A stretch of DNA of 54,182 bases from Marinicella sp. (GTDB lineage: Bacteria > Pseudomonadota > Gammaproteobacteria > Xanthomonadales > Marinicellaceae): the NCBI GenBank assembly GCA_028284365.1, contig JANQRW010000090.1, positions 1-54,182 of the forward strand, read 5' to 3'. How positions within the stretch are numbered: position 1 is the first letter of the stretch; every line of letters starts with the position of its first letter. Shown piece after piece: positions 3,896-38,235 of the stretch. The notes below the pieces were generated by a model, which was not told the origin of the DNA, did no database searches, and worked only from the letters and a program-made list of their open reading frames with translations. The position numbers and the translations under genes are program-made.

Positions 3896-4605
3896 ATGAA
3901 AAAAACAGCTGTCATTACACTCTTATTGTTTTGCTTAAAGATCAATGCTGCCCAGTTAGATTTATTTCCCCAACAAGACAACACCATCTATGAAACCATC
4001 AGCTTTCCCTTGAGTAATGGTGCCAGCCAGTACTTATTCACTGGTAGGACAGGTAACAATAACGACAACGCACTCAGACGAGCGGTACTTAAATTTGATT
4101 TAAATCAGATCCCAGATCGATCAACCATCAATAGTGTAGAACTGGTGTTAACTGTTTCACGACAAGTTAACAACTCAAATGTTTCATTACACTTAACCGA
4201 ATCTGATTGGGGGAAGGCGCTTCCAATGCTGGCACCCCAGGAGGTGCGGGAGCACCAGCTGAATTGAATGATGCCACTTGGATCAGTGCTTTTAATGGTG
4301 ATGACAAAAACGGTGGTATTTCCTGGCATAATGTGGGCGGTGATTTTGCAACATCGGCATCTGCGACAACAGCGGTCAATAGCTCGGGGACCATCACATT
4401 CTCCAGTCCAAACTTAGCTGCTGATGTTCAAAACTGGATAGATGGAAACAATCAGAACTATGGATGGTTTCTCATCGGTGATGAAATCAATTCCAATTCA
4501 GCTGTGCGGTTCATTAGCAGAGAAAACTTAATGGAACAACCCAAGCTTGTAATTGACCTGAATATCCCTGACTTAATTTTCAGCGGTGGGTTTGAACAGT
4601 TATAA
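3896..4605 (+). pseudogene. frameshifted secreted DNRLRE-domain-like protein
   Basis: Two overlapping frames (3896-4267 and 4207-4605) together give one secreted protein of about 235 residues. The first holds a signal peptide (MKKTAVITLLLFCLKINAA) and the start of a beta-sandwich domain resembling DNRLRE ('RAVLKFDLNQIP'). The second continues it ('DWGEGASNAGTPGGAGAP', 'ADVQNWIDG', 'NYGWFLIGDE', 'VRFISREN'). The switch occurs at a run of five G at 4209-4213; one more G restores a single frame. The C-terminus reads IPDLIFSGGFEQL, resembling the short Asp/Gly-Phe-Glu tails common on secreted proteins of some gammaproteobacteria. It may be a true pseudogene, a phase-variable tract or a sequencing error. 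Confidence 0.72.
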
Positions 4606-6148: not shown

Positions 6149-7156
6149 TTATGAGGACATTTTGAGTGACTTGATTGAATTCATAAGAACCGCAGGCTTA
6201 TCCACCCCCAAATAAATGCTGTGTACACCATTAACCGCTTGTTTTAGATGCAGACAAACATTCGGGTTAGCAATTAAGTTGAATACTTTTATACCCCTTT
6301 TCCTAGGCACGTAATCACTGTGTAGATGGATTGACCCGATGTTATCAATGTCTAAATTATAAACATTTAACAATCCCATTCTTATGATTAATTGTTTCTT
6401 ATTAATTGATATAGGGCGGCAGCTCATTGCTCGATACTCTGCAATCATATAAAACAAACCAAACACGGTTAATCCTGTGACCACATTAGCAGCAAAGGGT
6501 GACCAAATAAAATGCAACAGCAGATGAACAATGGGAATTTCAAAAACAATCAACCAAATAAAACCCAATGCCGTACCATGTATGTCATCTTTGCGGTGGT
6601 AACTGAAATGTAAATCACCTTGGTAGTTTTCCTGTTTAATGCGTTTATTGAAAATCAAGAAACTCCACATTCTGGCTTCAAAACACATGATTTTGGCTAC
6701 CAAACCGGAGCCCAACCATTTATAGACCGGCGCTGCAATCGCATCATCCGGGTCAGCAGCTCGATTCAAACCTGCTCGGATGGCCCAATACACCGTAACA
6801 ACCACCGTTAATTCAAATAACAATAACATTGCCAGAATTACAAACCGCCCACTTTCCAGGTAAGACCAAATGACTTTGTTTTCTTCAGGGATGATAATAC
6901 TACCGATCAAAATGGCCAAACACAAATAAACCACAGCTTTGATACTCGCTGCTTTTTTATCAGCCACACAAAACCAGCATAAAACCGGTAAAACCAACAA
7001 ACCATCAAGCATAAACAACCATTCAAATTTCGCTTGTCCATAATCATTGAGGACATTGTTGCTGTTGTAGTAAAAAGCCCAGAAGCCCGCAATGGCAACT
7101 AAATAAATCAGTGGTAGGAACGCCCTAAGTGAGTCTTTCGAATAAGTTAATTGCAT
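6149..7156 (-). CDS. membrane protein of unknown function
   Basis: I do not recognise the family. The 335 residues show hydrophobic segments near 11-28, 47-64, 70-88, 103-126 and two more around 197-240, so probably six helices. The last 90 residues are hydrophilic and strand-rich ('PISINKKQLIIRMG' followed by 'IGSIHLHSDYVPRKRG'), which resembles a bacterial PH-like domain behind membrane helices. The gene lies 32 bp downstream of recG on the same strand and may be cotranscribed. No signal peptide beyond the first helix and no catalytic motif are evident. Confidence 0.75.
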   Translation of the reverse strand: MQLTYSKDSLRAFLPLIYLVAIAGFWAFYYNSNNVLNDYGQAKFEWLFMLDGLLVLPVLCWFCVADKKAASIKAVVYLCLAILIGSIIIPEENKVIWSYLESGRFVILAMLLLFELTVVVTVYWAIRAGLNRAADPDDAIAAPVYKWLGSGLVAKIMCFEARMWSFLIFNKRIKQENYQGDLHFSYHRKDDIHGTALGFIWLIVFEIPIVHLLLHFIWSPFAANVVTGLTVFGLFYMIAEYRAMSCRPISINKKQLIIRMGLLNVYNLDIDNIGSIHLHSDYVPRKRGIKVFNLIANPNVCLHLKQAVNGVHSIYLGVDKPAVLMNSIKSLKMSS

Positions 7157-7188
7157 GTCAGGATTTAACCCTTTAACCCGATTATATT

Positions 7189-9255
7189 TTACACCTTGGC
7201 CAATGTTTGAGCCTGTTTCTGCCAGCGTTTGATGATTAAGTCACAAACTTTTGGGTTACTTTGCATCAAATCGGCAGCCATGGTTTTGGCGAGTTTAAAC
7301 AGTTGGGCATCTTGTTCGGGATTGGACAAGCGAAATTCCATACTGCCTTTTTGGCGAGTGCCAAGTATCTCGCCAGGCCCACGTAGTTTCAAATCCTGTT
7401 GGGCGATTTTAAACCCATCATTGGTTTCCCGCATGGTTTGCAATCTGATTTGTGCATTTTCACTTAAGGGTGCTTGGTACATCAACACACAATGGCTTTG
7501 ACGATTGCCACGCCCTACTCGACCACGTAACTGGTGTAATTGTGACAGTCCCAATCGCTCAGCATTTTCAATCACCATTAAACTGGCGTTAGGCACATCC
7601 ACCCCAACTTCTATCACTGTGGTGGCCACCAACAACTGAATGTCATTGGCTTTAAAACGATCCATGACCTCCTGTTTATCATCACTTTTTAAGCGACCAT
7701 GTATCAAACCCACTTCCAAATCAGGGAATTGGTTTTGCAGTTCTTCAAAGGTGTCTTGTGCCGCTTTCGAACGCATGTGTTCAGACTCCTCAATCAGGGT
7801 ACAAACCCAGTATGCTTGCTCACCATTCGAACAAGCATTGCGAATACGCAACGCCAATTGTGGCATTTTACTGTTATCCAACAGCACTGTATTAATGACT
7901 TTGCGATTGGGTGGCAATTCATCAATTACTGATACATCCAGATTGGCATAGGCTATTTGTGCCAAAGTTCTGGGAATCGGCGTGGCTGTCATGATTAAAC
8001 TGTGAGGTAATGTTTCTCTGCCCAGCCCTTTTTGCCCTTGTCCTTTGTTCTTGAGCATTAATCTTTGGTGCACTCCAAAACGATGCTGCTCATCAATAAT
8101 CACCAAAGCTAAATCACGGTATTCAACATCAGACTGAAACAAAGCGTGAGTACCAATGATGACATCAGCATCACCGCCAATTTCTGCCAAAGCTTCTGTC
8201 CTTGGCCTGCCTTTGATTTTACCAGATAAAAACACCACCTTTTTATCTGCGAAGTAACCTTTCAAAGTCACTAAATGTTGCTCTGCTAAAATTTCTGTCG
8301 GTGCCATCATCACCACTTGCTTACCGTGGACCAATGCCGCTTGCATGGCCAAGGCAGCCACTACAGTTTTACCACTGCCAACATCACCTTGGACTAATCT
8401 TTGCATGGGATAGGAACAACTCATATCCGCCTGAATTTCTTTGATCACCCGTGCTTGGGCGCCAGTTAACTCAAAAGGCAAGCGTGATAGCAACGTTTGA
8501 TTTTGCTTTTGACTGACAGGTAATGCCGGTGCTGTTTGCTGTTGTATCGCGGTTCGAGCCTGGTGCATGGCCAAAAAATGTGCCAGTATTTCTTCAATTT
8601 TTAAGCGCTGTTGTGCCGGATGTGTTTGGTTCAACAGTTGCATCACATCAGCATCTGGTGGTGGCCGATGTACATACAATAAGGCATCAATTAAACTTGG
8701 CATATTCTGTTTATTCAACCAATCTGTTGGCAACAACTCAGACAAGTCAAACTCACCAAACTTCAACAGCTGAACTGCTTGCGCTGTTGATTTCTGCAAT
8801 AACTTTTGTGAAATACCTTCAGACTTTGGATAAACTGGCGTTAAAGATTCAGCCAGCGCGGGTTGCTTCTCACCCAATGAAAATTCCGGGTGTATGATTT
8901 CCATACCGTACATGCCATGTTTAATTTCACCATAAGCACGAATGCGTAACCCAGCCCGCATCTTTATTTTTTGTGAATAGTAGAAGTTGAAAAACTTAAG
9001 CTGCATAAATGCCGTGCCATCATCAATTTCCACCACCAATATGGGGCGCCTGCCTTGCGTTACATAGGATTTGACGATTTCACCTTCGACTTGAGCATGA
9101 GAGAAACCAAGCAAATCTTCAATCGCCGTGATGCAAGTTTTATCTTCATACCGCAGAGGCAAATGGAACAACAAATCCATAACATCATTGATACCAAGGG
9201 TATGTAATTTTTCAGCTGTGGTTTTACCTATTCCTTTGAGTTGGGTCAGTTCCAT
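7189..9255 (-). CDS. recG: ATP-dependent DNA helicase RecG
   Basis: RecG remodels stalled replication forks and Holliday junctions. The 688-residue length matches the family. The N-terminal wedge/OB domain starts with a helix-hairpin-helix-like 'LKGIGKTTAEKLHTLGI'. The helicase core shows Walker A 'GDVGSGKT' near residue 288, a DEQH box in 'VIIDEQHRFGVHQR', motif III 'MTATPIPRTLA', and motifs V-VI 'TTVIEVGVDVPNA' and 'QLRGRVGRG'. It is the distal member of the conserved rpoZ-spoT-ridA-recG order, with about 50 bp between it and ridA. Confidence 0.97.
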   Translation of the reverse strand: MELTQLKGIGKTTAEKLHTLGINDVMDLLFHLPLRYEDKTCITAIEDLLGFSHAQVEGEIVKSYVTQGRRPILVVEIDDGTAFMQLKFFNFYYSQKIKMRAGLRIRAYGEIKHGMYGMEIIHPEFSLGEKQPALAESLTPVYPKSEGISQKLLQKSTAQAVQLLKFGEFDLSELLPTDWLNKQNMPSLIDALLYVHRPPPDADVMQLLNQTHPAQQRLKIEEILAHFLAMHQARTAIQQQTAPALPVSQKQNQTLLSRLPFELTGAQARVIKEIQADMSCSYPMQRLVQGDVGSGKTVVAALAMQAALVHGKQVVMMAPTEILAEQHLVTLKGYFADKKVVFLSGKIKGRPRTEALAEIGGDADVIIGTHALFQSDVEYRDLALVIIDEQHRFGVHQRLMLKNKGQGQKGLGRETLPHSLIMTATPIPRTLAQIAYANLDVSVIDELPPNRKVINTVLLDNSKMPQLALRIRNACSNGEQAYWVCTLIEESEHMRSKAAQDTFEELQNQFPDLEVGLIHGRLKSDDKQEVMDRFKANDIQLLVATTVIEVGVDVPNASLMVIENAERLGLSQLHQLRGRVGRGNRQSHCVLMYQAPLSENAQIRLQTMRETNDGFKIAQQDLKLRGPGEILGTRQKGSMEFRLSNPEQDAQLFKLAKTMAADLMQSNPKVCDLIIKRWQKQAQTLAKV

Positions 9256-9305
9256 ACGAATTCAAATCATTTGGATTGAGATATATGAACACTTCCAATC
9301 GACAC

Positions 9306-9686
9306 TTATTCAACTGCAATGATGGCATCAATTTCAATCAATGAATCTTTTGGCAAACGAGCGACCTGAACAGCAGCTCTGGCCGGGTATGGTTCTTGAA
9401 TGTATTCACCCATCACTTGATTCAATAGGGCAAAATCTTCCAAATCCTGCAAAAAAACATTTAATTTGATGGCATTTTGTAAAGATGTACCTGCTGCCTC
9501 TGCTATGGCCATTAAGTTCTTGAATACTTGATTGGCCTGTACTTCAAATTCGGGTGGCAACATTTCGCCAGTAGCAGGGTTAATTGGAATTTGACCCGAT
9601 GTGTATAAAACTTGATTGTGAACTATGGCTTGTGAATAAGTACCAATAGCAGCTGGGGCTTGGTCAGTATTAATTATTTTTTTCAT
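9306..9686 (-). CDS. ridA: RidA family enamine/imine deaminase
   Basis: RidA (YjgF/YER057c/UK114) hydrolyses reactive enamine/imine intermediates released by PLP enzymes such as threonine dehydratase, protecting other PLP enzymes. The sequence is 126 residues, the usual length, with 'AIGTYSQAI' near the start, 'YTSGQIPINPATGE', and the C-terminal signature 'YPARAAVQVARLPKDSLIEIDAIA'-like block whose Arg binds the carboxylate. It overlaps the end of spoT by 17 bp, so translation is probably coupled to the stringent-response gene, as in related genomes. Confidence 0.95.
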   Translation of the reverse strand: MKKIINTDQAPAAIGTYSQAIVHNQVLYTSGQIPINPATGEMLPPEFEVQANQVFKNLMAIAEAAGTSLQNAIKLNVFLQDLEDFALLNQVMGEYIQEPYPARAAVQVARLPKDSLIEIDAIIAVE

Positions 9687-11850
9687 GATAAACTCGATTA
9701 ACGTTCAAAACTTCTCGATGGCTTGATAACTGATCCATCAAGACTTGTGCATGTTTGGCGCTGGTCACCTCAACAGTAAACACCAACTGTGAAAAGCCAG
9801 TATCCCTATCGGTCTGGTCAATGGTGACAATATTGACATCTTCACCTGCTATAACAGCAGCTAAACTGGCCAAAACACCAGTGCGATTAACCACATCAAC
9901 TTCTATCGAGGTTTTAAAATTGCCATTGGTGTTAATACTCCAGCTACAATATACCTTACGCTCGGGTGAGCTTTTCAAGGTCTCGGCCAAATTAATACAA
10001 CCACTGCGATGGATAACCACACCTTTGGTTGGACTCAGATAACCAGTGATCTCATCTCCTGGTAATGGTAAACAGCAGTTGGGATAATTTACAATAGAGC
10101 CTTCGGTACCATCAATAGACAATGCTTCTTTCGGCTGATAATCTTTGTTCAGTTTTCTTTGTTTCATCAACGGCATCAGCTTTCTGGCTGCAATTGATGG
10201 TAATAGTTCACCGAAAGCAAAGGCCTTTAACAATTCGTCCATACTGTTCAATTGGTAATGCTTTAACACCCTTTTTATGGATTTTGGATCTAGTTTTTCA
10301 AAAGAATAACCAAAGGTGTCTAACGCCCGATCCAACATGCGATGGCCCAAAATCAACGCATCTTCATCTTTGATGTCTTTCAATTCCTTGCGAATGGCTG
10401 TACGGGCTTTACTGGTCACTACAATGCGCAACCATTCTGCATTAACGGTTAAACCTGCTGCAGTTTTTATAGATACGGTATCACCAGTATCCAGCACCTG
10501 AGTTAAGGTTGCCGGATTACCATTAACCACCGCACTTTCAGCATGTGAACCCACTGAGGTATGAATCGCAAAAGCAAAATCCAACACACATGATTTACTG
10601 GGCAATTGCACAATATCGCCTTTGGGTGTGAAGACATAAATTTCATCAACACCCAAGTCACCTTTAAAATTTTCATAAAACTCCAGCGAGCTACCAGAAT
10701 CTTTCTGCAGATTTAACAATGAATTTAACCAGCTTCGTGCATTAGTCAATGAGCGAGTTAGTTGTGCGTTCTTGTGTTTGTAGAGCCAGTGTGCTGCCAC
10801 GCCTGCTTCTGACATTTGATCCATTTCTTCGGTGCGTATCTGCACCTCCAACTTCATACCAAAAGGACCAGTCACCACAGAATGCAAGGACTGATAACCA
10901 TTCTGTTTGGGTACCGCAATGTAATCTTTAAAACCATTCTCATTAGGCGGGTACAAATTATGAATAATCCCTAAAGCCAAATAACATTGATTCAATTCTT
11001 TAACCACAATACGAACACCAAATAAATCATGGATATCTGCAATTTCTACTTGTTTGGTTTTAAGTTTTTTATAAGTGCTATAAGGTGACTTTTGGCGCCC
11101 TGTCACTTCTACATGCATCCCAGAACCTAACAAAGCTTTTTCAATGTTCTTACGAATTTTCTCAACTGCTTTTTGACGATTGCCAGCTATTTTTCTACAA
11201 GCGTCTTTAATTTGTTTGTATTGGTTTGGATGCAAGGCTTTAAAGGCATGATCTTCTAATTCATGCTGAATGGCTTTTAGCCCCATACGCTCAGCTATTG
11301 GTGCATACACATCCAAAGTTTCTTTGGATATACGGCGTTGACCAGAAGCACTCATGGCTGCGATGGTACGCATGTTATGTAACCGATCAGACAATTTAAT
11401 GATGATGACACGGATGTCATCTGCCATAGCAAATAGCATTTTGACAAATGTTTCTGCTTGCGCTTCTTTAAGATTCCTGAATTTTAGTTTATCTAACTTG
11501 GTAACCGCCTCAACCAAATAAGCCACATCCTTATTAAAATAATGCGTGATGTCGTCATGACTAACATCCGTATCTTCAATGGTGTCATGCAAGACACCTG
11601 CAATTAAAGTGTCTATATCAACTCGCAGCTCAGCTAAAACCGTAGCCACGGTAATGGGATGGGTTATATAGGGCTCACCAGACTTCCGAATTTGTTTCTC
11701 ATGGGCATAGGCACCATAATGAACTGCTTCTCGCAGTTTGGCCTTTTCTTCAGGTTTCAGGTAAGGGTTGGTTTTTTCTTTGAGCGTTTTAAAAGCAACT
11801 TGAACAGCTTTGTGGCTCATGGTATCAGACGTGAACGACAATTCACTCAC
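9670..11850 (-). CDS. spoT: bifunctional (p)ppGpp synthetase/hydrolase SpoT
   Basis: A RelA/SpoT homologue of 726 residues with the long-form domain order: HD hydrolase (HDTIEDT at residues 88-94, so the HDxxED hydrolase motif is intact), synthetase ('FKDYIAVPKQNGYQSLHS'), TGS ('DEIYVFTPKGDIVQLP' onwards), zinc-finger-like/RIS region ('NCCLPLPGDEI') and a C-terminal ACT domain. Both active sites look functional, so it should make and degrade the alarmone (p)ppGpp. It follows rpoZ and overlaps ridA, the classical arrangement. The start at MSELSF gives about ten residues before the conserved part. Confidence 0.96.
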   Translation of the reverse strand: MSELSFTSDTMSHKAVQVAFKTLKEKTNPYLKPEEKAKLREAVHYGAYAHEKQIRKSGEPYITHPITVATVLAELRVDIDTLIAGVLHDTIEDTDVSHDDITHYFNKDVAYLVEAVTKLDKLKFRNLKEAQAETFVKMLFAMADDIRVIIIKLSDRLHNMRTIAAMSASGQRRISKETLDVYAPIAERMGLKAIQHELEDHAFKALHPNQYKQIKDACRKIAGNRQKAVEKIRKNIEKALLGSGMHVEVTGRQKSPYSTYKKLKTKQVEIADIHDLFGVRIVVKELNQCYLALGIIHNLYPPNENGFKDYIAVPKQNGYQSLHSVVTGPFGMKLEVQIRTEEMDQMSEAGVAAHWLYKHKNAQLTRSLTNARSWLNSLLNLQKDSGSSLEFYENFKGDLGVDEIYVFTPKGDIVQLPSKSCVLDFAFAIHTSVGSHAESAVVNGNPATLTQVLDTGDTVSIKTAAGLTVNAEWLRIVVTSKARTAIRKELKDIKDEDALILGHRMLDRALDTFGYSFEKLDPKSIKRVLKHYQLNSMDELLKAFAFGELLPSIAARKLMPLMKQRKLNKDYQPKEALSIDGTEGSIVNYPNCCLPLPGDEITGYLSPTKGVVIHRSGCINLAETLKSSPERKVYCSWSINTNGNFKTSIEVDVVNRTGVLASLAAVIAGEDVNIVTIDQTDRDTGFSQLVFTVEVTSAKHAQVLMDQLSSHREVLNVNRVYHEKNN

Positions 11851-31926: not shown

Positions 31927-32079
31927 ACCAACCCTCTTTAATGTTTAGAAACAGCATCTTAACAGAATATTATTTCCACTAACTGTTATATACCTTTCAT
32001 TTTAGCGCTTTAATTTGTTTATGTTCTACGACCAAATATTAGGGAGCGAGCTTTGCGAGCGATCCCAATGATTTTTTTG

Positions 32080-32451
32080 TTAAATTTTAACTTCTAGCAT
32101 GGATATAAGTTGATATGCATAGTTTTGATATTTTCCATGTAGATAAAATTCATCATTTTCTTTGGTATAAATTTTCACCACAAACGTATCTAAGCCATTC
32201 GGCAAAATATGGGCTTCAATTATTTCACCTCTGTCTGTAGTAACTCTGACTGCTTTATAGCTTACATTCGGAATTCTCTTTACTGGAATTTTAGTGGTAC
32301 AATCGGAAAGTAACATTTTCACAGTTTTCGCTATTTGAGCCTCTTTTACTTTATCAAAAAGAATCTCCTCTGTTTTTCCAATGAGTTCAACATTTGCTGC
32401 AGCTGGATTCAACCACCAAGAAGCTAAAATTAAAAATACATAATTTTTCAT
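32080..32451 (-). CDS. small exported protein of unknown function
   Basis: Begins at MKNYVFLILASWW, which gives a signal peptide cleaved near PAAAN; a longer frame to 32538 has no such start and runs back into the cassette boundary. The mature part (about 100 residues) has no family I recognise ('VKRIPNVSYKAVRVTTDRGEI'). Its TAA overlaps ATTTAAC (minus strand), which fits the first core site of an attC perfectly, but the rest of an attC cannot be folded here. It is the distal end of the integron array or the first fixed chromosomal gene beyond it. Confidence 0.6.
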   Translation of the reverse strand: MKNYVFLILASWWLNPAAANVELIGKTEEILFDKVKEAQIAKTVKMLLSDCTTKIPVKRIPNVSYKAVRVTTDRGEIIEAHILPNGLDTFVVKIYTKENDEFYLHGKYQNYAYQLISMLEVKI

Positions 32452-32568
32452 AAAATTTAACGTCTTTGGCACAAGCTTAGTCAGAGTGGAACCTTCTGCC
32501 ATATAATTGCGAAGCAATGGCAAAAAGTGTAACGGCAATTAAGTCCTGTGCACAAACTTATTCATACT

Positions 32569-33057
32569 CTACCTGATTAATATTTTATTAACCTTAACAT
32601 AAAGCCATACACTCATACCTGCCAGTATAACACTTAAAATTGTATAGACGTTAAATGTCATAATCACAGGCACAACAACACCTTTGGGAGTGCAAGTATG
32701 ACAATAATGCCATTCACTGCGAGTAACCTGCCAAGATGCATAGGCAGGGAAACAGCAGATATAAACAAATATTGCGATCTTTTTGATGGCTTTACCATTC
32801 TTATATTTTAAGATTCGAGCAGTTATTAGTGTCACTATGCTCATGATAAATACATAAGATATGTATGCAGCTATTTGAAGTTTCTTATCCCATTCAAAGA
32901 GGCCACAAGAAACAGGTAATCGAAATGCACAACTATCAGTTACGCTTGAAGCAAGAAAACTTAAATATTCATGAACGATTAATCGTGAAAATATAAATAA
33001 AAAAACTAACAGAAAAAGTGATGCCAGCGTAAGAAAAAAATACCGTATATATCTCAT
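32569..33057 (-). CDS. integron cassette 8: four-helix membrane protein
   Basis: A 162-residue protein with hydrophobic segments near 7-28, 60-82, 93-108 and 130-155. A Cys-rich pair of loops ('SCAFRLPVSCGLFEW' and 'HYCHTCTPKG') lies outside the helices and may form disulfides or bind metal. No family is recognised. The gene starts 20 bp after attC7's core site, typical cassette spacing. No well-formed attC follows it; a stemless remnant (core GTGTAAC at 32527-32533) is all that is visible, so this cassette may be locked in place. Confidence 0.68.
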   Translation of the reverse strand: MRYIRYFFLTLASLFLLVFLFIFSRLIVHEYLSFLASSVTDSCAFRLPVSCGLFEWDKKLQIAAYISYVFIMSIVTLITARILKYKNGKAIKKIAIFVYICCFPAYASWQVTRSEWHYCHTCTPKGVVVPVIMTFNVYTILSVILAGMSVWLYVKVNKILIR

Positions 33058-33076
33058 CTATAACTACCTCACTGGC

Positions 33077-33153
33077 GCATAACGCTGCCATAAACGGCGA
33101 GCCGTCAGGCCAGTCCAGCGCGCTGAGCGTACGAGCTTAATGCTTTGTTAGGC
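33077..33153 (-). repeat. attC7 recombination site
   Basis: Imperfect palindrome of 77 bp with core sites GCATAAC (33077-33083) and GTTAGGC (33147-33153) read on the plus strand. It contains the TAAACGGCGAGC word shared with other sites in this array and a central CAGTCC. The stop codon of the cassette-7 gene lies inside the site's first core, as is common. Confidence 0.85.
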
Positions 33154-33534
33154 TTTCTCATTTTTAAGCACTTTAGACAAGACTACAGACGTGATAACAA
33201 GATATAAAACTGTAGCAATGTGCTTTGCAACAACACCAAGCGGAGCCTCTGCCTGGTATGCCAGATAACCATCTGTTAATGGCATTACTGTACCAAATAA
33301 AGCCGCCCACATAAGAACTTTAAACGCTCGAAAGTAAAGCAAAACACCAATTATTAGAGATATGAATAGCGTACGAGAAGCATATATTTGTACCCAATCT
33401 ATGTCTTCATTTGAAACAAGGGCTGTACCGCGAACATCAGCGAAAGCGACTGGGTCTAAATAGGCAAACACCCCATAGAACCCTTGAAGCAAAGCCATCA
33501 GTAAAACCAATACAAACCCTATTTTTCTTGTCAT
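33148..33534 (-). CDS. integron cassette 7: small membrane protein
   Basis: A 128-residue protein with four hydrophobic helices (about 5-25, 50-68, 70-86, 100-122). It resembles the general pattern of DUF4267-like small membrane proteins ('WVQIYASRTLFISLIIGVLLY'), but I cannot confirm this. The loop 'FADVRGTALVSNEDIDW' is the longest hydrophilic stretch. A good ribosome site (GGAGA) lies before the ATG. It is bounded by attC6 upstream and attC7 downstream, so it is a complete cassette of about 494 bp. Confidence 0.72.
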   Translation of the reverse strand: MTRKIGFVLVLLMALLQGFYGVFAYLDPVAFADVRGTALVSNEDIDWVQIYASRTLFISLIIGVLLYFRAFKVLMWAALFGTVMPLTDGYLAYQAEAPLGVVAKHIATVLYLVITSVVLSKVLKNEKA

Positions 33535-33570
33535 TTTTATTTCTCCTGTATGTTGTGTTTGTTCTATAGA

Positions 33571-33627
33571 GCCTAACGCCCAAAGCAGCGGGCGGCGAAG
33601 CCGTCCGACTGCCTTTGATTGTTATAT
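33571..33627 (-). repeat. attC6 recombination site
   Basis: A short, 57-bp attC. On the plus strand it begins GCCTAAC and ends GTTATAT. The arms pair CAAAG-CAG with CTG-C-CTTTG, with one unpaired base, the extrahelical base that gives attC its strand polarity. It ends the fos cassette. Confidence 0.9.
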
Positions 33628-33628
33628 T

Positions 33629-34027
33629 TTAGTACCACTTCAGCCCTTTATAGGGACTAGATTTCAATTCTTCCAGTCTGGATTCAAGGCTGCCAACGTG
33701 AATCTCCAGCTTATGCCCATCGGGATCAAGAATATAGAGTGACTCTCCTTCACTTGTATTTTTCTTCCACGTTTCTGCGCCAGACGAGAGTACTTTACTG
33801 CAATAAGAGTGAAAGTCAGCTTCGGCCACGGTGAAGGAAATATGGCTATAATCTTTTGCAGGCGAAACATCATCAACGGACAGACATACCCACAAATCAC
33901 TAACAGATAAATATGCACCGGAGTCCCATTTTACCACGGGTTTCATCCCCAAGATTGAAGCATAGAAAGTGAGCGATTTTTCTAGCTCACTTACTGCAAT
34001 GGTGATGTGATTCAGTCCCTTTAGCAC
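33629..34027 (-). CDS. fosA-like: integron cassette 6: FosA-type fosfomycin thiol transferase
   Basis: A 132-residue glyoxalase/bleomycin-resistance-fold protein very close in pattern to FosA, which inactivates fosfomycin by adding glutathione. It opens 'MLKGLNHITIAVSELEKSL' and carries 'WDSGAYLSVSDLWVCLS' and 'DPDGHKLEIHVG'. Metal ligands His7, His62 and Glu108 correspond to His7, His64 and Glu110 of Pseudomonas FosA. Lys88, Ser92, Glu93, Ser96, Tyr98 and Arg117 match the K+ and fosfomycin-binding residues. It is a complete cassette between attC5 and attC6. Many mobile fos genes are integron cassettes; this one is in a chromosomal array. Activity is inferred, not shown. Confidence 0.9.
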   Translation of the reverse strand: MLKGLNHITIAVSELEKSLTFYASILGMKPVVKWDSGAYLSVSDLWVCLSVDDVSPAKDYSHISFTVAEADFHSYCSKVLSSGAETWKKNTSEGESLYILDPDGHKLEIHVGSLESRLEELKSSPYKGLKWY

Positions 34028-34042
34028 GATATCTCCGAGAAA

Positions 34043-34133
34043 ATATAACGCTCACATAAACGGCGAGCAACTTGTTGCGAGTCCTTTTTGGCGCCAAAGG
34101 CGACAAAAACTTGGTTTGATGTGATTGTTATAC
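34043..34133 (-). repeat. attC5 recombination site
   Basis: A 91-bp palindromic site with plus-strand cores ATATAAC (34043-34049) and GTTATAC (34127-34133). The outer arms pair over TCACAT-AAAC against GTTT-G-ATGTGA, with a single unpaired base. An inner hairpin pairs GCAAC with GTTGC. Confidence 0.92.
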
Positions 34134-34139
34134 AAGCTC

Positions 34140-34496
34140 CTATTTATATCCAATCTTTGCTAAAGAAGCCTGAATCACTTCTGGCTGGTAGCCATAAATA
34201 ACATCTTCTCCAATAATTGATAGCGGAACTCCGCTCCCACCCAAAGAACGAAATTCAAACTGAGCGATTATTGATTTTTCTATATCATACTCTGTATAAG
34301 ATATGCCATTTTTATTTAATGTTTCCTTAAGTTTTTTACAATACGGACACCAACTTGCCGAATATATTATTATTTTTTCACTCCCTTCACTCGGTTGATA
34401 AATTTTGGGCCCAATATACCCCAAATAAACGACCACTATCGCTATTGATGTAAGGCTGGAATACACAACTCTTCTTAAAGTAAATCGTTTTTTCAT
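34140..34496 (-). CDS. integron cassette 5: membrane-anchored glutaredoxin-like protein
   Basis: The start is set at MKKRFTLRRV because the longer frame begins inside attC4. The 118-residue protein has one N-terminal hydrophobic helix (about 10-30), so its C-terminal domain probably faces the periplasm. That domain is glutaredoxin-like: 'IIIYSASWCPYCKKLKETL' with Cys50 and Cys53, and a cis-Pro loop 'GSGVPLSII'. Soluble glutaredoxins lack such an anchor; a thiol-disulfide role outside the cytoplasm is inferred. It is bounded by attC4 and attC5 and forms a complete cassette of about 466 bp. Confidence 0.82.
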   Translation of the reverse strand: MKKRFTLRRVVYSSLTSIAIVVVYLGYIGPKIYQPSEGSEKIIIYSASWCPYCKKLKETLNKNGISYTEYDIEKSIIAQFEFRSLGGSGVPLSIIGEDVIYGYQPEVIQASLAKIGYK

Positions 34497-34508
34497 TTTC
34501 ACTTTTCT

Positions 34509-34563
34509 GTATAACGCTTGGTTCAGGTGAGCCGAAGGCGTCACCTGGAACCACTTGTTACAC
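34509..34563 (-). repeat. attC4 recombination site
   Basis: A compact, 55-bp attC. Plus-strand cores are GTATAAC (34509-34515) and GTTACAC (34557-34563). The arms TTGGTT-CAGGTGA and TCACCTG-G-AACCA pair with one extrahelical base, a textbook attC shape. The reading frame of cassette 4 runs through half of it. Confidence 0.93.
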
Positions 34564-35194
34564 GCTGGTCGGTACGAATTTCATTTGTTTTTGTTACATG
34601 GTAATGACGTTCGACATTTTTTGTGATTTCTCCCCAGACAGAGTTTTTTACCCAGCTTTGGTGCAGCGCAAATGCTTCTTCATCTGTGAATTCTTCATAG
34701 ACCATGAATTTATTAGGATTATACTCTTGCTGTTCGACGTTAAAGACCAAACAGCCAGGCTCTGACCTTGTTTTTTGGATATGAACAGGAAGCTCTTTGA
34801 GAACAACTGATAAATCTTCATCAGAAACGATGATATGACCTTCGAGAGTAACTTTTGAAATGATCGGTTCGATTGTTTTGCAAGGAACCCAGCCTACTTG
34901 CCCCGACGAATTTTCTGACCAAGCCCACTCATTTAGAACCTTTTTAATGAATAGAACCTCTCCAAGCTTTGTTGATAGCTCCGTTGCGTTATAGTCTTTG
35001 GCTGCTGTTGATTGAGTAGTTCCCAAGTTAATGTATTGTTCTGGAGCCCATCCTTCGTTTCCACATTTTGTCGTTACTCGAACCCACCCTTGATATTCAT
35101 CATCTCTAACTCCAACAGAAAGCTTTTCTCCCTTTTGGAATTTTATTGGGTCTGGATAAGCTGAGGTATATTTCTCAATTACTTGATATTGCAT
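34541..35194 (-). CDS. integron cassette 4: SH3-SH3-ABM domain protein
   Basis: A 217-residue soluble protein with three domains: two SH3-like modules (residues 3-56, with 'GWVRVTTKCGNEGWAPEQYI', and about 66-111, with 'GQVGWVPCKTIEPI') and an antibiotic-biosynthesis-monooxygenase (ABM) fold at 113-203 ('SEPGCLVFNVEQQEYNPNKF', 'VYEEFTDEEAFALHQ'). ABM proteins are small heme/quinone-type or cofactor-free oxygenases. The last dozen residues are translated from attC4, so the tail is made by the recombination site. There is no signal peptide. I know of no named protein with this order, and the function is unknown. Confidence 0.83.
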   Translation of the reverse strand: MQYQVIEKYTSAYPDPIKFQKGEKLSVGVRDDEYQGWVRVTTKCGNEGWAPEQYINLGTTQSTAAKDYNATELSTKLGEVLFIKKVLNEWAWSENSSGQVGWVPCKTIEPIISKVTLEGHIIVSDEDLSVVLKELPVHIQKTRSEPGCLVFNVEQQEYNPNKFMVYEEFTDEEAFALHQSWVKNSVWGEITKNVERHYHVTKTNEIRTDQRVTSGSR

Positions 35195-35209
35195 GATTTC
35201 TCTTGAAGC

Positions 35210-35284
35210 GTATAACGCCTTAAACAGCGGCGAACGAAAGTGAGTCCGGCAGCGCTAGCTGCGAACTGATTTAACTTGTTAGAG
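35210..35284 (-). repeat. attC3 recombination site
   Basis: A 75-bp site with plus-strand cores GTATAAC (35210-35216) and GTTAGAG (35278-35284). The arms TTAAACAG and CTGATTTAA pair imperfectly, and an inner AGCGCTAGCTGCG hairpin and a GAGTCC word are present as in the other sites. Confidence 0.87.
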
Positions 35285-35290
35285 GTTTTA

Positions 35291-35596
35291 CTATTTTTTA
35301 CGATCTTCAAAAGCTTTCCAAGGGTGTTTTTCTAAGATTTCGTCGCGTTCTTTTAGGTCATGCTTAGATTTAAAATAAACGATAATACTAATCATCGAGA
35401 AGCCTATAGCGAAATAAATACCTGTTTCTAATCCTAGCTGGCTTACAGAAAAGATTAATATAGCAATGAAAACCAAAGTGAATATGATAAATTTTGACTT
35501 AAAGGATGCTTGTTTCGCTAGTTTTCCAGATATTGGTTTGTTAAGAGCATTAGAGAGTTTATTACTTCCGCAAATACCTTTATCGATTTCTTTCAT
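35291..35596 (-). CDS. integron cassette 3: small two-helix membrane protein
   Basis: A 101-residue protein with a hydrophilic N-terminus of about 33 residues, two helices (about 35-52 and 58-76) joined by a short loop, and a charged C-terminus ('KSKHDLKERDEILEKHPWK'). The tail 'KHPWKAFEDRKK' is rich in Lys and aromatic residues. No family is recognised. It forms a complete cassette of about 398 bp between attC2 and attC3. Confidence 0.68.
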   Translation of the reverse strand: MKEIDKGICGSNKLSNALNKPISGKLAKQASFKSKFIIFTLVFIAILIFSVSQLGLETGIYFAIGFSMISIIVYFKSKHDLKERDEILEKHPWKAFEDRKK

Positions 35597-35607
35597 TATT
35601 CATGTAC

Positions 35608-35697
35608 CTCTAACGCCGCGCACAGGGGCGGCCAAATAAGCGCAGCGTTTTGGGCGTCCCAGCGACCAACGGGAGCGGTTGCTGCGACTTGTTAGTG
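35608..35697 (-). repeat. attC2 recombination site
   Basis: A 90-bp site with plus-strand cores CTCTAAC (35608-35614) and GTTAGTG (35691-35697). It has GC-rich inner arms (GGGGCGGCC, CGCAGCG and GTTGCTGCG). The stop codon of the cassette-2 gene lies inside a core, as for several other cassettes here. Confidence 0.85.
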
Positions 35698-36168
35698 TTT
35701 AGCTTGCTTGAAGCCACGGATTACCCAGCCAATAGACCAGCCTAAGATTAGTAGAGCAATAGATGGTATTAACCACCAAAGTAATGACTGCAAATAGTGA
35801 TTATTTTGCTTGCTGGGCAATTCATCTAGCTCTTTCTCAAATCTCTCATTAATGGCAGCCACTTGGGTAGAAAATATTTTTTGCCCTTCAGATGGGGTTT
35901 CAACTATTTTTCTTAGCGAATCAATAATTTCGTTATTTGTTCTATCTTTGAATAGAATATCCTTAATTTTATATGAATAGATCTCTTGGCCTTCGGCTTC
36001 CGATATTTTTTCAGCAATAACGTCAGTTGCTTCGGTCACCCACCTATACTCAATATATGAAAGACTTGGTTTCGTTTCATAAGAAACTGCAATTATGAGA
36101 ATTCCATACACAACAATTAAAACTATCCATAGTCTAAACCAGCCACCTAGTTTCATATTTTCTCCCAC
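35692..36168 (-). CDS. integron cassette 2: membrane protein with central coiled-coil-like domain
   Basis: A 158-residue protein with a helix near each end (about 11-28 and 129-150) and roughly 100 charged residues between them, probably outside the membrane. The middle is helical and Glu/Lys-rich ('QVAAINERFEKELDELPSKQ'). A second start at MKLGGW, four codons in, is equally possible. No family is recognised. The architecture (two helices flanking an extracytoplasmic helical domain) is common among sensors and envelope-stress proteins, but nothing here fixes a role. Confidence 0.7.
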   Translation of the reverse strand: MGENMKLGGWFRLWIVLIVVYGILIIAVSYETKPSLSYIEYRWVTEATDVIAEKISEAEGQEIYSYKIKDILFKDRTNNEIIDSLRKIVETPSEGQKIFSTQVAAINERFEKELDELPSKQNNHYLQSLLWWLIPSIALLILGWSIGWVIRGFKQAKH

Positions 36169-36170
36169 AA

Positions 36171-36260
36171 CACTAACGCCCGGCTAAACGGCGAGCCACG
36201 CAGTGGCGAGTCCAGTGGAGCGCCGTAGGCGCGCAACGGTGTTTAAGCCGCTTGTTAGGT
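36171..36260 (-). repeat. attC1 recombination site
   Basis: A 90-bp palindromic site with plus-strand cores CACTAAC (36171-36177) and GTTAGGT (36254-36260). The arms CGGCTAAAC and GTTTAAGCCG pair with one unpaired base. It shares TAAACGGCGAGCC and GCGAGTCC with attC5 and attC7. It closes the first cassette. Confidence 0.9.
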
Positions 36261-36262
36261 TT

Positions 36263-36952
36263 TTATTGGTCGAATGCATTACCTTTGCCCAAATTACATT
36301 GCTTGCACTTAGATTGTAGGTTTTCTTCGACGGTTTCTCCGCCTTTAGACCAGGGTAGAATATGATCGACGTGTAACTCGACTCCCCGCTCCTTAATTGG
36401 GCTTGCACCACAAGATTGACAAGTAAAACCATCTCGAGACAGAATCCTGAATCGCATACGGTCAGATATGTTGCGACTGGTTCTTCTTTTCTTGGGTTTT
36501 GTTTCTTTGTTTTCTTGAGGCTGCAAGACTTCTTCTTGCTCTTCGGAGGGTGAGCTTTCATTGATATAAGTTACAAATGCTTCTAAGGCTTGCCGATAGC
36601 CACCAAAGCGCTCCCGATAAATATGTTCAGTATATTTAGATAGCGGCTTCACTAAGTCTCTAGTTACCGGCTGCCTCCCCAAGGCTATCCAGACATTTTC
36701 TAGATTAATGAATAGATCACGATCAGAAACATCCTTTTCTTCATTAATGTCCAAGCCTGCTGCTTTCAGAGCAGAATTCCATGACCCAAAGCGAGAAGCC
36801 ATAGTGCTTGAGGAGTACTTTCCAACCTCGCTATAAGATCTGTAGTTCAAAGGTTCGTTGCTCTTTGAAAGAGCCTCATAGCTTGCCCTTAGATCATCTA
36901 TAAGTTCTTCTTTACTGACGTTTCGATTAAATTTTTCTAGTTGAAACTTCAT
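36263..36952 (-). CDS. integron cassette 1: HNH endonuclease with HNH-associated repeats
   Basis: A 229-residue protein. Two helical repeats of the homing-endonuclease-associated type (HNH_repeat) lie at about 32-67 ('SRFGSWNSALKAAGL') and 85-125 ('RERFGGYRQALEAF'). A basic linker (KKRRTSR, 154-160) leads to a C-terminal HNH nuclease with 'LHVDHILPWSKGG' (His194, His197), Asn211 and a zinc ribbon CxxC pair (Cys178/181, 216/219). All catalytic features look intact. It is the attI-proximal cassette, so it should be the most recently inserted and the best expressed from Pc. It may be a defence or selfish nuclease. Confidence 0.9.
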   Translation of the reverse strand: MKFQLEKFNRNVSKEELIDDLRASYEALSKSNEPLNYRSYSEVGKYSSSTMASRFGSWNSALKAAGLDINEEKDVSDRDLFINLENVWIALGRQPVTRDLVKPLSKYTEHIYRERFGGYRQALEAFVTYINESSPSEEQEEVLQPQENKETKPKKRRTSRNISDRMRFRILSRDGFTCQSCGASPIKERGVELHVDHILPWSKGGETVEENLQSKCKQCNLGKGNAFDQ

Positions 36953-36965
36953 CGATGCTCCAGAA

Positions 36966-36972
36966 ACCTAAC
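36966..36972 (-). other. attI core site, junction with first cassette
   Basis: On the minus strand GTTAGGT fits the integrase core GTTRRRY and lies 14 bp before the ATG of the first cassette gene. It matches the distal core of attC1 exactly, as expected after cassette insertion. The rest of attI should extend from here towards intI. Confidence 0.75.
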
Positions 36973-37017
36973 AATTTATTATGTGTACATTGATGCTTAA
37001 TATCATCTGATTCTCCT

Positions 37018-37125
37018 GATATAAGTGCACTGTTTTTAATAGCTTTTTATTATAAGTCATTGATTTCTCACTTTGTAGGAAATTATTACTGCACTAATAA
37101 CTGGTTATAGGCGGATATAAGTGCA
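37018..37125. repeat. repeated GATATAAGTGCA motif in the attI/intI leader
   Basis: GATATAAGTGCA occurs at 37018-37029 and 37114-37125, and the reverse form TGCACT occurs at 37090-37095. The last can pair with AGTGCA at 37120-37125. These could be the direct repeats to which IntI binds in attI, or operator sites for a regulator of intI and the cassette promoter. Confidence 0.6.
37049..37054 (-). promoter_or_regulatory. possible cassette promoter Pc, -10 element
   Basis: A perfect TATAAT on the minus strand about 95 bp upstream of the first cassette gene, in the position expected for Pc. The best -35 at 17-bp spacing (37072-37077) is poor, so the assignment is tentative. Confidence 0.3.
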
Positions 37126-37145
37126 TGAAATCACTAATATCCGCC
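37110..37145. promoter_or_regulatory. 14-bp inverted repeat directly upstream of intI
   Basis: The arms GGCGGATATAAGTG (37110-37123) and CACTAATATCCGCC (37132-37145) are complementary at 13 of 14 positions around an 8-nt loop. The site ends 25 bp before the intI start. It lacks a T-run, so it is not a simple terminator. It could be an operator, a cruciform, or an mRNA hairpin that limits intI translation. It overlaps one GATATAAGTGCA motif. Confidence 0.75.
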
Positions 37146-37170
37146 GAAATCTTAATAAATGTGCATAATT

Positions 37171-38133
37171 ATGAAACTGTTAGATCAAGTCGCTGTTAAA
37201 TTGCGTTTTCTGCATTACAGCGAGAACACCTTAACCACCTATACCTCCTGGATAAAAAAATACATCCTTTTCCATCAAAAAAGACATCCTACCGAAATGG
37301 GCAAAGCTGAAATTGAAATGTTTTTAAGTCACCTTGCTGTTGAAAGAAAAGTAGCTGCCACAACTCAAAACCAAGCTTTTAATGCGCTTTTATTTCTCTA
37401 CAATCAAGTATTGAACATATCTTTACAAGATGAAAATATCAATGCACTGCGAGCAAAACAGCGAGTGCACCTTCCAGTCATATTGAGTACCAAAGAAGTC
37501 AAAAAAATCATCTCTTGTATGCCGGATAATATCTATGCTTGTATTCTTAAAACTATTTATGGTTGTGGCTTAAGGTTGAAAGAAGTGCTCAATCTAAGAA
37601 TAAAAGACATTGATTTTTCTTATAATCGTATGATTATTTGGGACAGTAAATCTTTAACAGATAGAAGCTTGCCACTTCCTAAGCAATTGATCCCTGCATA
37701 CCAGAAGCTCATTGCCGAGAATCAAACTCAACATGAAAATGATATAAGAAACGGTCATGGTTCTGTCGAGTTACCCAATGCATTAAAAAGAAAATACCCT
37801 AATGCTGACAAGGAATTCAAGTGGCAATATCTATTCCCAATGAATAAAGTATCAAAGGAGCCAAAAACCAATGTGATTCGACGACACCATGTCTTAGAAA
37901 ACACCTTCAGTAGAAACTTAAAAAAAGCCGTAAGCAAGTCTGGGATTAATAAAAAAGTGACTGCACATACATTCAGACACTCTTATGCCACTCATTTATT
38001 GCAAGCTGGCATTGATATCAGAACCATTCAGGAGTTGTTGGGACACAAAAGTTTAGAAACTACCATGATTTATACTCACGTGATTAAGGAACTCAGTCAG
38101 AAAAACCGATTCAGCCCTTTAGACTATCTTTGA
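37171..38133 (+). CDS. intI: integron integrase IntI
   Basis: A tyrosine recombinase of 320 residues from MKLLDQ (an ATG four codons earlier is possible; neither has a clear ribosome site). Catalytic residues are Arg135 ('[13 protein letters not shown]'), Lys160, His266 and Arg269 ('[13 protein letters not shown]'), His292 ('[11 protein letters not shown]') and Tyr301. The integron-specific insert between the Lys and His motifs is present (about 188-222: '[20 protein letters not shown]' then a Trp and 'LFP'), which separates IntI from XerC/XerD. It is transcribed away from the cassettes, the standard integron arrangement. The gene is intact and probably active. Confidence 0.95.
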
Positions 38134-38209
38134 AATAATTCCACTTAATACGTGCAAATAAGCCTTTGGAAACCTCAATAAACTTGATTAACGAGATAGT
38201 TGAGGTATA

Positions 38210-38235
38210 CGTTCCCACACCGAATCGTGGGAACG
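38210..38235. repeat. REP-like hairpin CGTTCCCAC/GTGGGAACG
   Basis: A perfect 9-bp inverted repeat (38210-38218 and 38227-38235) around an 8-nt loop, in the 233-bp gap between intI and the peptidase gene. No T-run follows on either strand. The sequence resembles the widespread 'GTTCCCACG...CGTGGGAAC' repeats linked to REP/RAYT elements, from memory. The same gap has two further small stems, GTGAGC/GCTCAC (about 38280-38306) and TTTCAGC/GCTGAAA (38335-38351); no gene is evident. Confidence 0.5.

Follow-up and report, generated by a model that had tools for sequence, protein, structure and literature searches.

A chromosomal integron of Marinicella between prolyl-oligopeptidase and redoxin-domain genes, with a second cassette cluster at an older locus

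The 54,182-nucleotide window (the whole stretch of DNA analysed) carries a complete chromosomal integron, a known type of system in a new example from Marinicella. Its platform would have arrived between the genes for a prolyl-oligopeptidase and a redoxin-domain protein within this lineage, and a cassette cluster is still present at an older locus. We put the probability of this reading at about 0.85. An intact intI, an attI boundary, paired attC sites, a lineage-specific block and conflicting gene trees within the genus are all seen in the sequence (Table 1). The original prediction of a complete chromosomal integron, with intI opposed to its cassettes, is thus confirmed, intI lying on the plus strand and the cassettes on the minus strand. 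No paper pairing "Marinicella" with "integron" was found in the literature searched, supplements aside.

Table 1. Features of the integron and its surrounding block, in window coordinates
Feature	Position	Strand	Support or remark
Lineage-specific block between conserved flanks	32005..38197		edges uncertain by tens of bases
intI, integron integrase, 320 aa	37171..38133	+	TIGR02249 score; relatives' start positions
attI core GTTAGGT (ACCTAAC on +)	36966..36972	-	conserved flank TAACAAYTTATTA (window +) toward intI
attC1 (bottom strand = window +)	36171..36260	-	R1 34.6 bits, E 2.9e-6
attC2	35608..35697	-	R1 29.3 bits, E 5.8e-5
attC3	35210..35284	-	R1 33.0 bits, E 7.1e-6
attC4, compact, overlapping end of gene 4	34509..34563	-	R1 40.8 bits, E 8.8e-8
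attC5	34043..34133	-	R1 35.2 bits, E 2.1e-6
attC6, compact	33571..33627	-	R1 41.1 bits, E 7.4e-8
attC7, weakest of first seven	33077..33153	-	R1 18.6 bits, E 0.024; R2 23.4 bits, E 7.5e-4
attC8, degenerate, one R box altered	32455..32567	-	R1 21.0 bits, E 0.006
Possible eroded attC9, weak	32024..32085	-	R1 11.5 bits, E 1.3
Cassette 1, HNH nuclease with homing-endonuclease-associated repeats, 229 aa	36263..36952	-	PF18780 77.5 bits, PF01844 49.1 bits
Cassette 2, 158 aa	35692..36168	-	no Pfam family up to E 0.05
Cassette 3, 101 aa	35291..35596	-	no Pfam family up to E 0.05
Cassette 4, SH3 domains fused to ABM domain, 217 aa	34541..35194	-	PF07653, PF00018, PF03992
Cassette 5, glutaredoxin-like, 118 aa	34140..34496	-	PF00462 46.1 bits
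Cassette 6, FosA-type fosfomycin-resistance glutathione transferase, 132 aa, GTG start	33629..34027	-	NF000496
Cassette 7, DUF4267 protein, 128 aa	33148..33534	-	PF14087 45.4 bits
Cassette 8, 162 aa	32569..33057	-	no Pfam family up to E 0.05
Possible cassette 9, 123 aa	32080..32451	-	gene starts directly after attC8

The open frame of IntI spans 37159-38133 on the plus strand and is longer than the gene counted from the ATG at 37171, the equivalent of which is used by most relatives' IntI frames. IntI is an integron-type tyrosine recombinase, scoring 397 bits against the curated integron-integrase model TIGR02249 (cut-off 265), in agreement with the intact integrase claimed earlier. Its best match among solved structures is 2a3v (IntI4), with 275 bits. 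Where most other aligned rows have the motif GKGxKDR, SKSxxDR is found here. The XerD and XerC models also match IntI (147 and 138 bits), but far below their cut-offs of 330 and 335. With TIGR02249 passed and eight model-supported attC sites on one strand, the idea of a phage or Xer-type recombinase lying next to chance palindromes is refuted and has practically no probability left. The attI core was found where it had been predicted, adjoining intI. Its flank is identical in 14 of 20 aligned rows, whereas the cassette side diverges between rows, two row pairs excepted. In a check for a LexA box made by eye, the intI promoter showed no motif in common with the upstream region of this genome's own lexA.

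The attC sites were searched for in the whole window, filters off, with R1, a covariance model trained on relatives' sites only. R1 recovered all seven sites listed originally (sites 1-6 with 29-41 bits, E 7.4e-8 to 5.8e-5) and an eroded eighth that had been missed. These eight, with pairing arms and unpaired bases, are the top R1 matches in the window; all lie on the same strand at gene ends, and the next match has E 0.9. Because of the degenerate attC8 the array extends to at least 32455. A ninth attC was not accepted, since its R1 score is low (Table 1) and R2, a model without attC7 among its training rows, gave no match at 32024-32085 up to E 2. The gene at 32080-32451 may nevertheless be a further cassette; its protein is present in 1 of 61 genomes searched, this genome only. 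Thus the eight cassettes counted originally are present, and the full count may be nine. The sites are 55-113 nt long, model flanks included, with similar boxes and differing loops. Of the words said to be common to attC1, attC3, attC5 and attC7, AAACGGCGAGC is exact in attC1, attC5 and attC7 and GAGTCC in attC1, attC3 and attC5; the statement thus holds in part.

A loose palindrome scan was discarded because it found roughly equal numbers of matches in the window and in resamples, and a stricter scan for pattern plus stem was adopted. Over the whole window the strict scan found all seven palindromes, within a 3.2-kb stretch of the plus strand, together with two further plus-strand and two minus-strand matches, one of the latter inside the region. 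On 200 resamples of the 6.2-kb region, drawn with a first-order Markov model, it gave 63 matches in total, or roughly 0.3 per resample. Folding energy alone proved a poor test and does not support every site, the bottom-strand z scores being -0.9 to -4.0 for sites 1-6, +1.4 for site 7 and -0.3 for site 8. At the gathering score, Rfam matched nothing in the window or in L136.

The 31 relatives' attC sites were hand-picked from the strict scan, mostly upstream of intI, and other matches on both strands were omitted. The alignment holds 28 of them, after one site unlike the rest, one with an odd left arm and one near copy were dropped. Pairing holds in 93.4% of cells, against 35-48% when slid, and the covariation score is 0.44, against 0.09 in shuffles; both figures lean toward pairing because the sites were chosen with a stem score. 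Pairs changed on both sides numbered 11, compared with 9.3 in shuffles (53/500), which is not above shuffles. Of the first-look candidates in the genome-wide attC searches, 150 of 756 were scored in one and 150 of 671 in the other. In 23 loci from Campylobacterota, R1 had no match at E <= 0.05. When 12 of them were scanned more loosely, long TAACG...TTGTTA sites showed up near some intI genes, with match counts not above expectation.

Since intI is intact and attI conserved, it is plausible that the integron is live, as the original prediction also held. The competing view is that the integron is in decay and has stopped working. It draws on the degenerate attC7 and attC8 and on gene 9, which lacks a clear attC, but the intact intI and attI and the good scores of attC1-6 make it unlikely.

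The chromosomal setting is evident from the relatives, in which the two flanking genes stand side by side. Homology to genomes G005 and G015 stops at 31970-32026 and resumes at 38195-38198. In five of the six other genomes of the genus that have both flanking genes (G004, G007, G010, G013 and G017), these are merely 132-785 bp apart, and R1 has no match at E <= 1 between them. From sequence comparison, which rests on one strain of this Marinicella species, this suggests that the present copy reached its place recently. Alternatively, the platform could be old at this locus and have been lost wholly or partly from the relatives. G005 and G015 carry weak attC-like sites here (19.2 bits, E 0.011; 18.6 bits, E 0.015), so an older array may once have stood at this locus, and small cassette-like genes are found there too. 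Against this, five genomes are bare, and no other intI 3' flank resembles the one here, although several of the flanks compared are only 1.7-3.3 kb long. We regard an old platform at this site as improbable.

"Sedentary" is the usual label for chromosomal integrons, and the original prediction applied it to the array. The label is not supported for this copy, because five of six comparable relatives are bare at the locus and the IntI tree of the genus disagrees with its RpoB tree; a fixed locus with vertical descent is likewise not what the genus displays, only part of it having the radA locus in common. IntI of G007 and G009 is 94.7% identical, compared with 87.8% for RpoB. The RpoB data reject G007 and G009 as one clade (p-AU 2.8e-76), and the IntI data reject a clade of G007, G013a, G000 and G003 (p-AU 2.1e-5). 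These tests cover groups of the genus rather than this genome's own IntI alone, and the clades were picked after earlier trees had been inspected. The RpoB tree holds 17 of 18 genomes (G010, a fragment, was left out; G005, G008, G009 and G016 are partial) and the prolyl-oligopeptidase (POP) tree also 17 of 18 (without G008); IntI of G017 is partial. A larger IntI tree started from 10 Marinicellaceae proteins, 32 loci out of the 65 in L019-L083 and 15 out of the 19 in L084-L102, which belong to the same order or family. Of these 49 remain; L030 (internal stop) and the same-order L084, L086, L091, L094, L096, L098 and L102 (missed by the pattern) were lost.

G003, G005 and G017 have in common an older integron locus next to radA, so some positional stability is real. 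In the present genome, a cluster of five attC sites on contig C86 lies on the far side of the radA locus, with no integrase detected, and adjoins the genes flanking the integrons of G003 and G017. Taken together, the bare sites, the radA locus and the IntI/RpoB conflict indicate that integron platforms have moved within Marinicella. One possible course, to which we give clearly less than even odds, is a move within this genome, in which the platform left the radA side, its cassette cluster stayed, and it landed at the present locus. The C86 cluster fits such a move. So does the radA gene itself, which lies on a different contig, with homology to G003 ending right after it and no intI found there. 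However, G003 is the RpoB sister of this genome, with 98.3% identity in RpoB and only 74.1% in IntI, and has its integron at another locus. A simple move of an inherited copy would therefore have to be followed by a replacement in one of the two lineages.

In the preferred reading, the platform would have settled between the prolyl-oligopeptidase and redoxin-domain genes during the history of this lineage, coming from another Marinicella or from elsewhere in its own genome, and a cassette cluster is still found at the second, older integron locus. The substrate of IntI is most likely the folded bottom strand of the attC sites, and the enzyme would insert circular cassettes at attI. Because insertion would occur at attI, newcomers are expected to enter next to the HNH gene, and the cassettes captured first would be those at the left end, near which attC8 and perhaps an attC9 would be decaying. 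We infer recombination activity, capture order, expression from an attI-side promoter, and the source and route of the platform. A more speculative and rather doubtful proposal is that the whole platform (intI, attI and array) is a unit that needs neither transposon nor plasmid to move between loci and species of Marinicella. The route would perhaps be IntI acting at the platform's own edges, or hotspots beside repeat hairpins, with cassette clusters left behind. If true, this would make the chromosomal integron itself a mobile element. How a chromosomal platform changes place becomes testable in Marinicella, because bare sites, occupied sites and cassette clusters with no detected intI can be aligned.

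One of the closest known systems is the Vibrio cholerae chromosomal integron, whose IntI4 (2a3v) aligns with residues 11-316 of IntI and whose intI is likewise opposed to the cassettes. The Vibrio array is very large, whereas the Marinicella array has just eight or nine cassettes. Xanthomonas belongs to the order Lysobacterales, as does Marinicella. Its integron at ilvD resembles our case in the chromosomal setting and in attC clusters elsewhere in the genome. PMC12444791 describes one ancestral locus, which dominates in Xanthomonas, with mostly vertical descent; in contrast, Marinicella has at least the radA locus and several other surroundings of intI, and transfer of intI. Disagreement between intI and host trees has already been published, according to passages of PMC2426708 and PMC8618304. 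With mobile class 1 integrons the array shares its short length, varied attC sites and a resistance-type cassette, but no transposase family was found among the proteins scanned in and adjoining the Marinicella block.

None of the cassettes has a full-length match in the other loci compared, many of whose arrays are cut by contig ends. The sole match there covers 46 residues of the HNH protein with 39% identity, in L027; PADLOC gave weak matches to the HNH part of cassette 1 and nothing else. Because attC lengths and loops vary and full-length cassette matches are lacking elsewhere, the array is consistent with cassettes drawn from more than one source.

Cassette 6 is of the FosA type, scoring 193.2 bits against the Fos_GSH equivalog NF000496 (cut-off 180), and solved FosA chains match its protein. 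In an alignment to 5v3d inspected by eye, the metal- and substrate-binding residues are preserved. Cassette 6 is predicted to confer fosfomycin resistance. A FosA-type cassette outside pathogens enlarges the environmental pool of resistance-type cassettes. Like FosG and FosC2, cassette 6 passes the Fos_GSH cut-off, but it scores too low for the models specific to FosC2 and FosG, and its identity to these enzymes in the plasmid collection reaches 61-62% at best; over its eight best plasmid records the range is 60-62%.

The window locus is a real, complete integron of a known kind, and its features in Marinicella include an eroded far end and a FosA-type cassette. We take the host to be a species of Marinicella (order Lysobacterales, family Marinicellaceae) with a 3.1 Mb genome in 91 contigs, one of which (C50) is the entire window. 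The original prediction claimed seven attC sites. The covariance model R1 was trained on 28 sites of relatives only, for whose selection a TAACG...TGTTA motif was combined with a stem score, and was searched against the full window on both strands with filters off. All seven sites were recovered among its top eight matches, the eighth being 32455-32567 (attC8); the next match had an E-value of 0.9. In the R1 alignment, 93.4% of cells were paired vs. 35-48% with the partners slid, counts that are biased towards structure because the sites were chosen by pattern and stem score. Among 25 loci from more distant integrons, R1 also found sites in 13, for a total of 31; every one lies upstream of intI on the plus strand. 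It found no site at E ≤ 0.05 in the 23 Campylobacterota loci. Long TAACG-type palindromes missed by R1 lie near Campylobacterota intI genes, in counts not above expectation.

The integrase is the sole TIGR02249 match above cut-off in its genome. XerD and XerC models scored 147 and 138 bits vs. cut-offs of 330 and 335, and the top solved-structure match was 2a3v (275 bits). A quick tree of 49 rows, supported by SH-aLRT only, placed it inside a starred set (100) made up of 10 rows from Marinicellaceae and 8 from Campylobacterota. The loop motif was SKSxxDR in 16 of these 18 rows (one NKS, one unmatched by the pattern) and GKGxKDR in 25 of the remaining 31 (two SKG or AKG, four unmatched). Upstream of intI, TAACAAYTTATTA was exact in 14 of 20 aligned regions; the other six deviated by at least one base, and in two of them the crossover has GAAC. 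The rows diverged on the cassette side of attI, except for two pairs: L115/L116, which come from one genome, and L015/L016, which are near-identical copies. Between attI and intI, an inverted repeat with 14-nt arms and repeated RTGCA words occupies 37110-37145, and a related repeat was seen by eye at this interval in several relatives.

Cassette 6 is predicted to be FosA-type by model score (NF000496, 193.2 bits, cut-off 180). The narrower FosC2 and FosG models gave 185 and 171 bits, below their cut-offs of 250 and 240. Eight plasmid records showed 60-62% identity to this cassette and the rest less than 60%; a class-wide search of 369 genomes added one match at E ≤ 1e-40 (48% identity). In the other loci compared, where many relatives' arrays end at contig ends, neither the eight cassettes nor the ninth gene had a match over the full length (E ≤ 1e-3). 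The ninth gene was present in one of 61 genomes searched, its own. The SH3/ABM fusion matched six other genomes of 369, through its ABM part only.

Features of the integron and of the compared loci (window coordinates unless a locus is named)
Feature	Location	Remark
intI	37171-38133	TIGR02249 397 bits, cut-off 265
Cassette 1		HNH nuclease with homing-endonuclease-associated repeats; nearest attI
Cassettes 2 and 3		Proteins without Pfam family
Cassette 4	34541-35194	SH3/ABM protein
Cassette 5		Glutaredoxin-like protein
Cassette 6		FosA-type protein
Cassette 7		DUF4267 protein
Cassette 8		Protein without Pfam family
Ninth gene	32080-32451	Directly after attC8, inside lineage-specific block
Left neighbour of block		AhpC-TSA/redoxin-domain protein
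Right neighbour of block		Prolyl oligopeptidase
Second attC cluster	L136 (G000:C86) 6885-10082	Five attC sites, 19.8-39.8 bits
Single attC site	L137:7131-7245	26.4 bits
Long TAACG-type palindrome	L022 1864-1991	Near Campylobacterota intI
Long TAACG-type palindrome	L023 3203-3330	Near Campylobacterota intI
Long TAACG-type palindrome	L026 5897-6026	Near Campylobacterota intI
Long TAACG-type palindrome	L035 153-276	Near Campylobacterota intI
Long TAACG-type palindrome	L038 69-196	Near Campylobacterota intI

Alignment to genomes G005 and G015 set the block limits at ~32005-38197. The right flanking gene was found in 18/18 genus genomes and the left one in 7/18 (E ≤ 1e-60). Their matches lie 132-785 bp apart in five of the six other genomes with both (G004, G007, G010, G013 and G017), 4.1 kb apart in G005 and 6.7 kb apart in our genome. 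G005 and G015 carry different small genes at this locus with weak attC-like sites; one of these sites resembles a site in G011, with a mean column identity of 85%. A hairpin, TTCCCAC...GTGGGAA, stands immediately beyond the right block edge (38212-38233), and a similar one at the corresponding edge in G005 and G015. The G013 gap contains an 86-aa gene and repeats; at this integron-free site (L167, ~3950-4235), repeated stretches with AGAAGTGGTGTGAGGTCTACCTT copies were noticed.

IntI scored above cut-off in 13 of the 18 genus genomes, one match being partial and borderline. Its gene's 3' neighbours were shared within each of the groups G003/G017, G005/G015, G002/G009/G012 and G006/G014; none was shared with our genome. 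In G003/G017 this neighbour is radA (TIGR00416, 639 bits), which also adjoins a second G005 intI cut by the contig end. The C86 cluster of five attC sites in our genome is adjoined by genes from the opposite side of the G003/G017 arrays; it holds seven small proteins without Pfam family and stops 0.9 kb before the end of the contig, on which intI was not found. Our radA sits on contig C78, where homology to G003 stops immediately past it; the stretch read around it had no intI and no R1 match at E ≤ 0.5, and radA has lost the G003/G017-type neighbourhood there. G013 has one attC match (36.8 bits, L218 7255-7327) 0.9 kb from radA, and the stretch read there gave no match to intI. In G004 and G010, the two sides of the radA locus are 1.3 and 1.6 kb apart with neither intI nor an attC match. 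From these comparisons, radA seems to mark an older integron site for this part of the genus; the window platform seems to be separate from it and of later date.

The window platform itself may have come by transfer or by a move inside its own genome, and its setting allows the study of platform changes of place. Judged from sequence, we read intI as having moved horizontally within the genus, given the conflict between IntI and RpoB and the low IntI identity to G003. G007 and G009 share 94.7% identity in IntI, 87.8% in RpoB and 66.1% in the prolyl oligopeptidase. RpoB rejected the two as a single clade (p-AU 2.8e-76), and IntI rejected a clade of G007, G013a (a G013 row), our genome and G003 (p-AU 2.1e-5). 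G003 is the RpoB sister of our genome at 98.3%, and their IntI identity is 74.1%.
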